Source: Gemmatimonadota bacterium (lineage in GTDB: Bacteria; Gemmatimonadota; Gemmatimonadetes; Palauibacterales; Palauibacteraceae). Taken from it: 50,962 bases of DNA. Each line of letters opens with the position of its first letter. The stretch's first letter is position 1. Both the position numbers and the translations under genes were made by a program. The stretch covers positions 1,949,642 through 2,000,603 of the forward strand of contig CP070670.1 in NCBI GenBank assembly GCA_020351855.1, in the 5' to 3' direction. Shown here piece by piece: positions 37,011 to 40,742 of this stretch. Under the pieces are notes generated by a model. It was not told the origin of the DNA. It was given only the letters and a program-made list of their open reading frames with translations, and did no database searches.

Positions 37011-37238
37011 CTATCTCTTCTTGGCCGCCGCCTTCTTCGCGGCGGGCTTCTTGGCCGCCGCCTTCTTCGCGGCGGGCTTCTTGGCCGCCGCCTTCTTCGC
37101 GGCGGGCTTCTTGGCCGCAGCCTTCTTCGCGGCGGGCTTCTTGGCCGCAGCCTTTTTCGCGGCCGGCTTCTTGGCCGCAGCCTTCTTCGCGGCCGGCTTC
37201 TTGGCCGCAGCCTTCTTACCAGCTGTCTTCGTGGCCAT
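37011..37238 (-). CDS. Histone-H1-like Lys/Ala/Pro repeat protein
   Basis: The 75-aa product starts MATKTAG and then consists of alternating KKAAA and KKPAA pentapeptides (six full ten-residue units, then KKAAAKKR). This composition is that of the C-terminal tail of histone H1 and of bacterial H1-like/HU-tail proteins. It would bind DNA or RNA by charge, condensing the nucleoid or acting as a nucleic-acid chaperone. There is no globular domain. The ATG is preceded by AGAGGTGGAGA. It follows nrdJ by 50 nt, so nrdJ transcription may read into it. Confidence 0.8.
37021..37200 (-). repeat. Six 30-bp coding tandem repeats
   Basis: Six exact-length 30-bp units (plus a partial seventh to about 37217) encode the [10 protein letters not shown] decapeptide. 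The three units at 37021-37110 are identical. The later ones carry synonymous changes (GCC to GCA-type, GGCGGGC to GGCCGGC, one CTTCTT to CTTTTT). This means the 3' end of the gene was duplicated most recently. Confidence 0.95.
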
Positions 37239-37288: not shown

Positions 37289-39883
37289 TCAGCCGCACTC
37301 GCTGTAGCCGCAGGCATGGCACTTCGCGCAGCCTTCCTCGAACGTGAGACCCGTCCCGCAATCGGGGCAGGTGCCGATGAACGTCTTCGCCACCTGCTCC
37401 TCGAATCTCGCGATGATCGGCCTCTCGGCCGTCTGGCTGCCGCCGTTCGACTTCTTTGCCGCGCCCACTTCCTGGATGGGTAGCGACTGCTGGACACCCT
37501 CCTTCTCAGCCAGGTAGCGCTCGATTACCTGCGCGATCGCATCGGGGCTGGAGAGCACCTTGTTGGGTCCGTAGCCGACCGCCCGATCGGATGAGATCCC
37601 TCGCAGCTGCTTGTGGACCTCCCGCATCGAGATCCCCGACCGGAGCGCCAGGCTGATCAGGCGTCCCACCGCCTCGGCATCGGCCATCGCCGGACCGCCC
37701 GCCTTGCCCAAAGCAACGAACATCTCGAACGGGCGGCCCTGCTCATCCTCGTTGATCGTCACGTACATCGAGCCCAGGGGCGACTCGATCTTCCGCGTCC
37801 GGCCGCGGAGCTCGTTGGGCCGCTGCCGTACGGCAGGCTGACGCATGAAACCGCCCTCAAGCTCGGCGATCCGGCGGTCCTTCTCCTCGATCACCTTGCC
37901 CAGCTTGATGTTCTCTCGATCCAGCGCTTTGTTCTCCTCTTCCGCGTGGCGCAGTCTCTCGAGCAGGGCCGCCAGCTCGTTGCCCACCCCACGGTCCTCG
38001 ATCCTCTCCAGCCACCCCTCCGCGCTCTCGGCCGACGACGTGGCGCCCCCGTTCTCCTCCCTGACCTTCTTCGCCGTGCTGCCCGTGGAGAGGACCTGCT
38101 GGTCACGCGAACCATCCCGATAAACCGTCACGCCCTTGCAGTTGAGCTCGTACGCCAGCTCGTAGATCGCCTTCACGTCCGCTTCGCTGGCCGACTCCGG
38201 GAAATTGCACGTCTTCGAGATCGCCGAGTCCGTGTGAGCCTGGAACGCCGCCTGCATCCGGATATGCTGCTCCGGCGTCACGTCGTGCGCCGTCACGAAA
38301 GCCTCCTGCACATCGGACGGCACCTCGTCGAAATGGATGTGGCCCTCATCGGCGATGCGCCGCATCAGGTCCTCGCTGTGCCAACCGCCGGCCCTGGCCC
38401 GCTCCACGAAGTCGGGGTTCACATCCGGCATCAGCGTTCCCGCCTGGTTGCGCATGAACGCAACGGCGAACAGGGGCTCGATACCGCTCGAGCAGCCGGC
38501 GATGATCGAGATCGTTCCCGTCGGTGCCACCGTCGTGACGTTGCAGTTGCGAAGCGGGCGCAGCGGACGGATTCGCTCGCCTTGCTCGTCCCGGGCGCAG
38601 GTCTCGTCCGGCCCCCAGATGGACCGATCCCACTCCGGGAAGACGCCCCGCTGTTCGGCCAGGCGCTCCGACTCGCACTTCGCCTCGTCGTCTACGAACC
38701 GCATCAACTCCCGCCCCAGCTCGATGGATCGTCGGGATCCGTACGGCTCGTCCAGCTTCACGAGCATGTCGGCCCACCCCATGATCCCCAGGCCGATCCG
38801 GCGGATCCGCTTGGACAGATCGTCGATCTGCGGCAGCGGGTACTGGTTCGCATCGATGACGTTGTCCAGGAAGTGCGTCGCGGTACGAACGGTCTTGCCC
38901 AGCTCCTCCCAGTCGATACGTCCGCTCTCTACAAACGCGCCCACGTTGACCGAGCCCAGGTTGCACACATCGTAGGGCAGGATCGGCTGCTCGCCGCACG
39001 GATTCGTCGCCTCATAGCTTCCGAGATTCGGCACCGGATTGTAGCGGTTGGCCTCGTCGACGAAGAATATGCCGGGCTCGCCGTTCCGCCATGCGCCGTA
39101 GACGACCCGGTCGAAGACCTCGCGGGCACTCAGCCGGCCGACCGGCTCGCCCGTCCGGGGACTCCTCAGATCGTAGGGCTCGTCCCGCTGCACGGCCTCC
39201 ATGAACCGATCGGTCACGGCGACCGAGATGTTGAAGTTGGTGATCTTGTTCTTGTCCGCCTTGCAGTCGATGAACTCAAGGATATCCGGGTGATCGACGC
39301 GGAGGATTCCCATGTTCGCGCCGCGCCGGGTCCCGCCCTGCTTCACGGCCTCCGTGGAAGCATCGTAGACCTCCATGAAGCTCACCGGACCGCTCGCCAC
39401 ACCCATCGTGGAACGCACGACGTCTCCGCGCGGCCGTAGCCGGCTGAAGCTGAACCCGGTTCCACCGCCCGACTGGTGGATCAGCGCCATGTGCTTCAGG
39501 GTCTCGTAGATGCCCTCGAGGCTGTCCGGGACGGGGAGGACGAAGCAGGCGCTGAGCTGCCCCAGCGGCCGGCCGGCGTTCATCAGGGTAGGGCTGTTCG
39601 GCTCGAACCTTCCGCTGGCCATCATCTCGTAGAAACGCAGAGCCGTGCCGTGCGTCTCCTCCGGGCCTGCGCCGTAGAAGGCGTCGGACTCGGCGATCAC
39701 CCTGGCAACCCGCCAGAACATGTCCCTCGCGCCCTCGATCGGTTCGCCCGCCTCGTTCTTTCGAAGGTAGCGGCGGCGGAGGACGGTTGTCGCATTCTCC
39801 GTAAGCACCGGATCGGGAAGATCGGCCGGCACGTCTTGAACGGCTTGGGCAGGTGCCTCCATGGCTGCTCGGGGTGGGTGCAT
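37289..39883 (-). CDS. nrdJ: Vitamin B12-dependent (class II) ribonucleotide reductase
   Basis: NrdJ reduces ribonucleotides to deoxyribonucleotides using adenosylcobalamin, with or without oxygen. The 864-aa product has the first redox Cys in [28 protein letters not shown], the active-site [20 protein letters not shown] and [18 protein letters not shown]. The C-terminal zinc/redox region has CPDCGTG...[13 protein letters not shown]. Between core and tail, residues about 630-678 form a heptad-like coiled coil ([20 protein letters not shown]). ATG 39883 is chosen for the GAGGAAG upstream; another ATG lies 21 nt later. No other nrd gene is in the window. Control features in the long leader are listed separately. 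Confidence 0.95.
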
Positions 39884-39969
39884 CGGCTTCCTCGGTTCTC
39901 CTTCATGTCTCGGGCTGGACGCCCTCTGCACGACCGCTCGACAGGCTGCGAGTGGCATGGTTCACAGCG

Positions 39970-40003
39970 AAAAAAATGCGGGGTGGACTGTTTCGTACAC
40001 CCC
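39970..40003 (-). terminator. Intrinsic terminator-like hairpin inside the nrdJ leader
   Basis: On the minus strand GGGGTG (40003-39998) pairs with CACCCC (39985-39980) across a 12-nt loop. GCA and then seven T's (39976-39970) follow. It lies downstream of the only promoter I can see and 86 nt before nrdJ. It would therefore cut off transcription unless prevented, as an attenuator or riboswitch platform does. Confidence 0.55.
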
Positions 40004-40113
40004 TGACGTCTTCGAAATCCGCTACTTCTGGCCTGTGCTTGATTCAGACCCAGGTGGGAGATACCACTGGTTTTCCCCGTCTGTCCACACGCCAACACCA
40101 CGCGGTGGAAAAC
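40004..40113 (-). ncRNA. Structured nrdJ leader RNA (candidate cis-regulator)
   Basis: On the minus strand GTTTTCC (40113-40107) is the exact complement of GGAAAAC (40076-40070), a 7-bp closing stem. It encloses CACC-GCGT-GGTG. After it comes CCAGTGG-TATCT-CCCACCTGG, a hairpin with one bulge (about 40067-40047). About 40 nt then lead to the terminator. I could not find a convincing cobalamin B12 box, so the class, if it is a riboswitch, is open. Confidence 0.4.
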
Positions 40114-40127
40114 TCAATATCTGGGGG
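40112..40127 (-). promoter_or_regulatory. NrdR box 1 upstream of nrdJ
   Basis: ACTCAATATCTGGGGG on the plus strand fits the loose NrdR palindrome (ACnCwATATnTnGnGn). It lies just downstream of the -10 box, over the expected transcription start, and starts exactly 32 bp from the second box. Confidence 0.55.
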
Positions 40128-40134
40128 CAAACCC

Positions 40135-40163
40135 AGTGTAACCCCACTATATGTTGTGGTCAA
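40135..40163 (-). promoter_or_regulatory. sigma70-type promoter of nrdJ
   Basis: The minus strand has TTGACC (40158-40163), a 17-nt spacer and TACACT (40135-40140). The start point would be near 40128, leaving a 245-nt leader before nrdJ. An NrdR box fills the spacer. Confidence 0.7.
40144..40159 (-). promoter_or_regulatory. NrdR box 2 upstream of nrdJ
   Basis: CCACTATATGTTGTGG is a good match to the 16-bp NrdR palindrome (ACACwATATnTwGTGT-like). It sits between the -35 and -10 boxes, where a bound repressor would block RNA polymerase. Confidence 0.7.
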
Positions 40164-40208
40164 GTGTCTCGGCGGGATGGAAACCACTAATTCGAAAAAA
40201 CGATTCGC

Positions 40209-40742
40209 TCACCGCGGCGCGCGATGCCAGCGCTGGGCTCTGTGTCCCTCCTTAAGCAGCCGATAGTCGGCCACCGTGTGCGCGATTCGACCGCGAAGTC
40301 CCTCGTCGACCTCGCGAACCACGCGACCGGGTAGACCGACGACCAGGCTGTCCGGCGGAACGATCATGCCCTCGGTGACCACTGCCCCCGCTGCCACGAC
40401 GGACCCTCTCCCGACGACGGCTCGCGAGAGCACGATCGCGCCCATCCCGATGAGCGTGTCATCGCCGATCTCGCACGCATGGACGATCGCGCGGTGGCCG
40501 ATGCCGACCCGGTCTCCGATCAGTGTGGGACGGCCCGGATCCACGTGAACCACGGTCAGGTCCTGGATGTTCGTCTCGCGGCCTACCTCAATGTGTGCGA
40601 TGTCACCGCGGAGGACGCATCCGTACCAGACGCTCGCATGCTCTCCCACTCGCACATCGCCGATGACGTCCGCCGTGGGCGCCACGAAAGCGGTCGGATG
40701 GATGTCCGGTCGATCCCGGGTGGACAGCTCCTCGAGCCTCAT
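40209..40742 (-). CDS. Gamma-class carbonic anhydrase-like hexapeptide protein
   Basis: The 177-aa product is a left-handed beta-helix protein with imperfect hexapeptide repeats (VIGDVRVGEHASVWYGCVLR, GDDTLIGMGAIVLSRAVVG). The metal-ligand histidines of the gamma-CA/YrdA group lie in VVHVDPGRP and IGHRAIVHAC. Members hydrate CO2 or are inactive homologues. Its ATG overlaps the TGA of the amidase gene, so it is the last gene of the peptidoglycan operon, though no link to cell wall is known. Confidence 0.88.
   Translation of the reverse strand: MRLEELSTRDRPDIHPTAFVAPTADVIGDVRVGEHASVWYGCVLRGDIAHIEVGRETNIQDLTVVHVDPGRPTLIGDRVGIGHRAIVHACEIGDDTLIGMGAIVLSRAVVGRGSVVAAGAVVTEGMIVPPDSLVVGLPGRVVREVDEGLRGRIAHTVADYRLLKEGHRAQRWHRAPR

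Follow-up and report, generated by a model that had tools for sequence, protein, structure and literature searches.

NrdR boxes and a candidate transcription attenuator ahead of nrdJ in a Gemmatimonadota bacterium

Introduction

The question raised by this locus is what a hairpin resembling an intrinsic terminator does between the promoter of nrdJ and its start codon. The gene encodes NrdJ, a class II ribonucleotide reductase (RNR) that requires adenosylcobalamin (AdoCbl), and NrdR is commonly described as the regulator that controls transcription of RNR genes. NrdJ is the only RNR found in this genome and the level of nrdJ would set the supply of DNA precursors. The window considered here is a stretch of 50,962 nt from a Gemmatimonadota bacterium, and all coordinates refer to it unless a genome position is given. 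A preliminary description of this window had proposed that the nrdJ leader is an attenuator-type riboregulator. Our best reading, with a probability of roughly 0.58, is NrdR repression at the promoter combined with a transcription attenuator in the leader. NrdR-box promoters of RNR genes are already known; what the sequence suggests as new is a second control point, the leader terminator, behind the NrdR promoter of nrdJ.

Results and Discussion

A predicted tandem NrdR-box promoter precedes nrdJ

The nrdJ gene occupies positions 37289-39883 of the minus strand, with its ATG at 39883, a GAGG ribosome-binding site at 39890-39893 (minus strand, from the window sequence) and the Pfam domains of class II RNR. 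No other PF02867 gene was found in the 2.96-Mb genome, which is estimated to be 90% complete. Judged by its named relatives, the organism groups with Gemmatimonadota, close to Candidatus Palauibacter. Directly downstream of nrdJ (37011-37238, minus strand) lies a 75-codon frame of tandem 10-residue repeats that resembles a histone H1-type DNA-binding protein.

A sigma-70 promoter, TTGACC-17-TACACT (40135-40163, minus strand), has its predicted transcription start at ~40128, and the same -35/-10 layout (TTGACC-N17-TATAAT-like) is found in relatives. It is the only sigma-70-like site between 39000 and 41500, where shuffled sequences give an expectation of 0.3, in agreement with the preliminary description, in which the only good promoter lay 245 nt before nrdJ. 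Predicted NrdR box 1, CCACAACATATAGTGG (40144-40159, minus strand), falls within the promoter spacer and predicted box 2, CCCCCAGATATTGAGT (40112-40127, minus strand), at the transcription start, 32 bp from box 1 with a 16-bp spacer; the usual spacer between paired NrdR boxes is 15-16 bp (PMC12051234). The pair scores 24 out of 32 against mostly 13-18 for coding-sequence controls. A tandem pair sits at the same position in 27 of the 28 nrdJ genes of the family, and most nrdJ upstream regions examined across the phylum also carry one.

Both features expected of an NrdR-regulated RNR promoter are thus found, namely two boxes that overlap the promoter with a 15-16 bp spacer and an nrdR gene in the genome (TIGR00244 match, 170.9 bits versus a cut-off of 124.65). 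Streptomyces nrdRJ and nrdAB and the E. coli nrd operons (PMC9110341, PMC12051234) share the arrangement of two palindromic boxes that overlap the promoter at a distance of about three helical turns from each other, and the C and G positions conserved in those promoters are retained here, as is the presence of nrdR. NrdR binds such box pairs with dATP plus ATP (PMC9110341). Since nrdJ has a tandem NrdR-box promoter along with DnaA-type boxes in the leader, its main known signal is probably dATP/ATP acting through NrdR at the DNA level. The portions of these accounts considered here (PMC9110341, PMC12051234) do not mention a terminator in the nrdJ leader.

A terminator-like hairpin lies between promoter and gene

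Between this promoter and nrdJ we find a hairpin (40003-39980) followed by the spacer GCA and a T7 run (39976-39970), all on the minus strand (39970-40003). The hairpin, GGGGUG.AC[GAAACA]GU.CACCCC, has a stem energy of -12.1 kcal/mol and with its 3-nt spacer before the T7 it has the form of an intrinsic (rho-independent) terminator, a GC-rich hairpin with a U-tract at once after it. The T-run ends at 39970, the start codon at 39883 lies 86 nt further, just as initially described, and the predicted transcription start is ~125-150 nt from the terminator. A standard terminator scan, restricted to loops of 3-8, returned no site.

Such a combination is uncommon by chance and in this genome. Dinucleotide shuffles of the leader yielded an equally good hairpin and T-tract in 13 of 1000 cases, only three comparable sites occur on both strands of the 51-kb window, and a sample of 800,000 strand-bases from this genome contained five runs of at least T6, none of them behind such a hairpin. 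The whole-leader folding energy is not better than that of shuffles (z = -0.22), and global fold stability was therefore set aside as uninformative. Only two runs of T6 or longer are present in the window, the leader T7 and a T6 at 40200-40195 (minus strand); the latter follows a weak hairpin just past the upstream hexapeptide-repeat gene and is likely the terminator of that gene.

Upstream of the terminator the leader presents several further elements, all on the minus strand. Hairpin P2, TCCAC...GTGGA (40084-40109), may equally be an inverted DnaA-box pair. At 40075-40082 lies the first copy of a GUCAGGGG-like strand (AGACGGGG here), predicted to pair with the RNA 5′ end and showing one U-A to C-G double change. 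Hairpin P3, GGUCUG(9-nt variable loop)CAGGCC (40030-40050), keeps its stem in all five genomes of the genus, with one U-G to U-A change. The second copy, GTCAGGGGTG (39998-40007), forms the 5′ arm of the terminator and, by folding prediction, is a possible antiterminator partner of the RNA 5′ end.

The conserved unit ends at the T-tract

Five genomes of the genus have the leader available and these represent three independent lineages only. Their identity to the window is 61-89% over the stretch that begins at the promoter and closes just beyond the T-tract, against 32-38% over the next 58 nt (39962-39905), 45-57% before the promoter and ~60% at nrdJ third codon positions. This drop right after the T-tract indicates that the conserved unit ends where transcription would end. 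Across the three lineages, 26 of 28 stem positions of P3 and the terminator are invariant, versus 4 of 17 loop positions. All five genomes retain the hairpin together with a T-rich tract, though in G005, the most diverged one, that tract is weaker (ATCTTTG). The leader thus has the layout of an attenuator, with a terminator-like hairpin, conserved in relatives, placed after the promoter of the gene and before its start codon.

The stems are nearly invariant, and no covariation is seen in the genus's own terminator among the three independent lineages; the covariation that the preliminary description had called for in homologous leaders appears instead in an analogous hairpin of another family (f6, below). 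A covariance model built from the window leader matches exactly five genomes, those of the genus, always at nrdJ; the leader is single-copy and nrdJ-specific, and the model offered no route to distant homologues. The preliminary description had also pointed out a 7-bp complementary pair, GTTTTCC (40113-40107) with GGAAAAC (40076-40070). It is present, with the two strands 30 nt apart, but relatives, whose A-run is shorter by one, do not preserve it exactly, and we do not retain it as a conserved helix. In G005 its outer ends read C/G in place of G/C, which may be chance.

The same comparison bears on another arrangement, in which the hairpin would mark the end of an upstream transcript or of a distinct small RNA, and an unseen promoter further downstream would drive nrdJ. 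Our promoter scan considered sigma-70 sites only and the start at ~40128 is a prediction, which leaves such an arrangement some room. Yet the scan saw no promoter-like site between the T-tract and nrdJ, where a second promoter had been named beforehand as evidence that would speak against attenuation; the region 39962-39905 is not conserved in the genus, and the NrdR boxes, the known control of RNR genes, lie upstream of the hairpin in every lineage. We consider this the least probable of the accounts weighed here.

DnaA-type boxes in nrdJ leaders

The window leader contains a DnaA-box-like site, TTTTCCACC (40104-40112, minus strand; motif match), only in this form with one mismatch to TTWTCCACA. 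Exact boxes are present in 36 of 57 phylum nrdJ leaders versus none of 57 equal-length coding controls and one of 57 upstream controls, counts that do not represent independent events since the leaders are related to each other. In the phylum leaders, the boxes are often found ~59 and ~135 bp from NrdR box 1; the whole genome studied here has four occurrences of TTWTCCACA. Depending on the lineage, they read TTTTCCACA or TGTGGAAAA, and this occurrence in both orientations suggests that they act through DNA rather than RNA binding.

In E. coli, the nrdAB genes are under DnaA control (PMC8203912), with DnaA boxes at an RNR promoter, comparable to the boxes of the phylum leaders. The E. coli his operon, where DnaA boxes lie near an attenuator, has been suggested to undergo DnaA-dependent attenuation, in a study that reported no binding in vitro (PMC10989985). 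Unlike either case, the boxes described here appear in both orientations between lineages.

The enrichment of DnaA boxes over both sets of controls and their fixed spacing from NrdR box 1 would also suit purely DNA-level control, in which the conserved repeats would serve as binding sites for DnaA and NrdR and transcription would not terminate at the hairpin; in several leaders, the T-run itself reads TTTTCCAC. Most T-runs, however, are TTTTTCAAC or T6-T7 rather than DnaA boxes, the arms of the hairpins change together while the loops vary in sequence and length, and the 3′ half of the window leader is conserved though it has no strong DnaA or NrdR box. DNA-level control alone thus seems improbable to us.

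A candidate replication origin elsewhere in this genome (G000:C1:1835506-1835590; L123:1501-1586) consists of TTTTCCACA, TTATCCACC and TTTTCCACC clustered in an intergenic region next to a stretch rich in A+T. GC skew sampling did not confirm this origin. The cluster carries the same box variant as the nrdJ leader.

Unrelated hairpins recur at the same place across the phylum

A hairpin with a T-run between the NrdR promoter and nrdJ is found in 31 of 57 phylum leaders, compared with one of 57 coding controls and nine of 57 controls taken just upstream. The hairpin sequence of the window is not common to other lineages, and homology between its leader and theirs finds no sequence support beyond the promoter and the NrdR/DnaA boxes.

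In Palauibacter, the terminator hairpin is CCGGC...GCCGGTTTTTT around a near-invariant GGCATTCGACTCGCG, and a 50-nt near-invariant motif is kept around the terminator; full or one-mismatch copies of the motif occur at nrdJ only, one per genome. The element CCGGC[CG]TAGGCCGGCATTCGACTCGCG...GCCGGTTTTTT of these leaders (L007, L018, L022-L035) is single-copy, has no Rfam matches and looks like a separate candidate regulatory RNA. That this hairpin is a repeated element was ruled out, as it is single-copy and restricted to nrdJ except for chance matches with three mismatches (one with two).

In a second family (f6), the hairpin is GGCGGGAG...CTCCCGCC followed by TTTT. The covariance model of the f6 leader matched 56 of 394 genomes at one site each, except for one genome with two sites at contig ends. 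Among the sites fetched, nrdJ comes next on the same strand in 48 out of 50, the remaining two being at contig ends. All nine pairs of the hairpin show double changes, a level reached in none of 500 shuffles, and six of the nine still do on a MAFFT alignment that was not fitted to the structure. The f6 leaders are short and have no obvious antiterminator or alternative structure.

Other families differ. Sampled genomes of f2, f3 and f8 have NrdR boxes without a clear terminator, and those sampled from f5 and f7 have neither, so that the attenuator, as predicted from these sequences, is recurrent but not universal, and dispensable. In four nrdJ leaders (L058, L062, L064, L073) the slot held by the terminator in other leaders is occupied by a different inverted repeat, TTGAAAG...CTTTCAA, with no T-run.

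This distribution brings up another possible role for the terminator, that of a fixed damper which works at a constant leaky rate and sets a low nrdJ level, leaving all regulation to NrdR (and DnaA) at the promoter. It would fit the NrdR boxes being the most widely kept element, the f6 leaders showing no obvious alternative structure and some families managing with no terminator. A bare terminator, in contrast, does not need the ~160 nt from start to T-tract, P3 included, that the genus conserves, nor the 50-nt near-invariant motif that Palauibacter maintains around its hairpin. We see a constant leak as unlikely, though deserving serious consideration.

How the leader could work

According to the reading we prefer, NrdR repression followed by attenuation, nrdJ would be controlled at two points. 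The dATP-sensing repressor NrdR would bind the tandem boxes covering the promoter and transcription start, with DnaA probably at nearby boxes alongside it. RNA polymerase escaping this first point would meet the intrinsic terminator in the 5′ leader ~125-150 nt downstream; assuming that termination occurs and that read-through varies, nrdJ would be expressed only on read-through, which would make the leader a transcription attenuator. Candidate signals for the second point are DnaA or the replication state, the NTP/dNTP level and AdoCbl. Repression by AdoCbl is unlikely because NrdJ is the only RNR found.

For the genus, it is plausible that in the read-through state the RNA 5′ end, with the CCCC of NrdR box 2, pairs with the GGGG of the terminator 5′ arm, and that in a competing state it pairs with the copy of this arm that lies upstream. 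As long as the 3′ arm has not been transcribed, the RNA 5′ end is predicted to hold the terminator 5′ arm (GGGGU) with a probability of ~0.9 or more in four of the five genus leaders. Once the leader is finished, the terminator is predicted to win nearly fully in four of the five genomes and less so in G005, and read-through would thus need kinetics or a factor. The pairs between the 5′ end and the terminator arm do not vary within the genus, and the single U-A to C-G double change backs only the competing pairing with copy 1. A two-state switch based on these 5′-end pairings is plausible, but NrdR box 2 could itself give rise to the CCCC/GGGG match as a by-product. As the f6 leaders show no such alternative pairing, their level of read-through may depend on a protein factor or on polymerase kinetics.

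The attenuator-type leader of the preliminary description is upheld in its promoter-terminator-gene layout, its conservation in the genus and its recurrence with unrelated hairpins; what that description missed are the NrdR boxes of the promoter and the DnaA-type boxes of the leader. If this holds, RNR output would be gated not only at initiation but also, at a second checkpoint, during elongation, and the DnaA boxes would link this elongation gate to replication. The predicted RNA 3′ ends at 39970 provide a specific site in a phylum with poorly studied regulation. More tentatively, these leaders of Gemmatimonadota may belong to a class of nrdJ attenuators, not described before, by which dNTP supply is coupled with replication. 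NrdR would sense dATP at initiation, whereas leader termination would respond to another signal, be it DnaA activity, nucleotide level or AdoCbl, by means of hairpins of independent origin in at least three lineages.

Known RNA families and precedents

No description of an nrdJ attenuator in Gemmatimonadota was found in the open-access papers searched. The closest precedent is nrdAB of Cutibacterium (Propionibacterium) acnes (PMC3848588), where an NrdR-type promoter with one nrd box is followed by premature termination in the leader before the RNR gene, attributed to a cobalamin riboswitch; here the gene is nrdJ and no cobalamin riboswitch precedes it. Attenuators from premature-terminator screens (Naville and Gautheret 2010, PMC2965389) are likewise conserved intrinsic terminators of 5′ leaders, kept by synteny rather than sequence; the strings 'nrd', 'ribonucleotide' and 'ribonucleoside' are absent from the main text of that work.

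The nrdJ RNA motif (RF03034), listed ahead of nrdJ of Streptomyces lividans (PMC8079986), is also a candidate structured RNA of an nrdJ leader, and the window leader differs from it in sequence and structure. Membership in this family, raised as a possibility in the preliminary description, gains no backing: none of 60 genomes (this one and 59 relatives) exceeded 40.3 bits and this genome (G000) gave no match at E <= 1, in a search that had no positive control (14 controls also gave no match over the cut-off). With gathering and with permissive thresholds alike, the only Rfam matches in the window were tRNAs; among the relatives, three matches to sRNAs below the threshold fell at a terminator in another part of L088.

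A ligand-binding riboswitch, whether of cobalamin type, of the known nrdJ motif or with a new aptamer, could in principle use the terminator as its expression platform. The multi-helix leader ahead of the terminator, with its invariant blocks GAAGU and GUGUACG, the dependence of NrdJ on AdoCbl and the highly conserved, nrdJ-only motif of Palauibacter would all accord with this. Against it, there is no Rfam match at E <= 10 in 39850-40210, consistent with the absence of a clear B12 box noted before, nor at E <= 1 in 17 family loci; both RF03034 and RF00174 are absent from the leader, the leaders are not common between genera, and AdoCbl repression would make little sense for the only RNR found. 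We judge a riboswitch very improbable, and attenuation behind the NrdR promoter remains our preferred reading.

The cobalamin riboswitch family (RF00174) was discarded as the identity of the leader given that the sole match of the genome is not at nrdJ. This match (G000:C1:1946238-1946421, 42 bits; L118), located ~3.2 kb beyond the left edge of the window, precedes a btuF-like binding protein gene and a permease-like frame, so a canonical cobalamin switch is present at the B12 uptake genes and absent at nrdJ.
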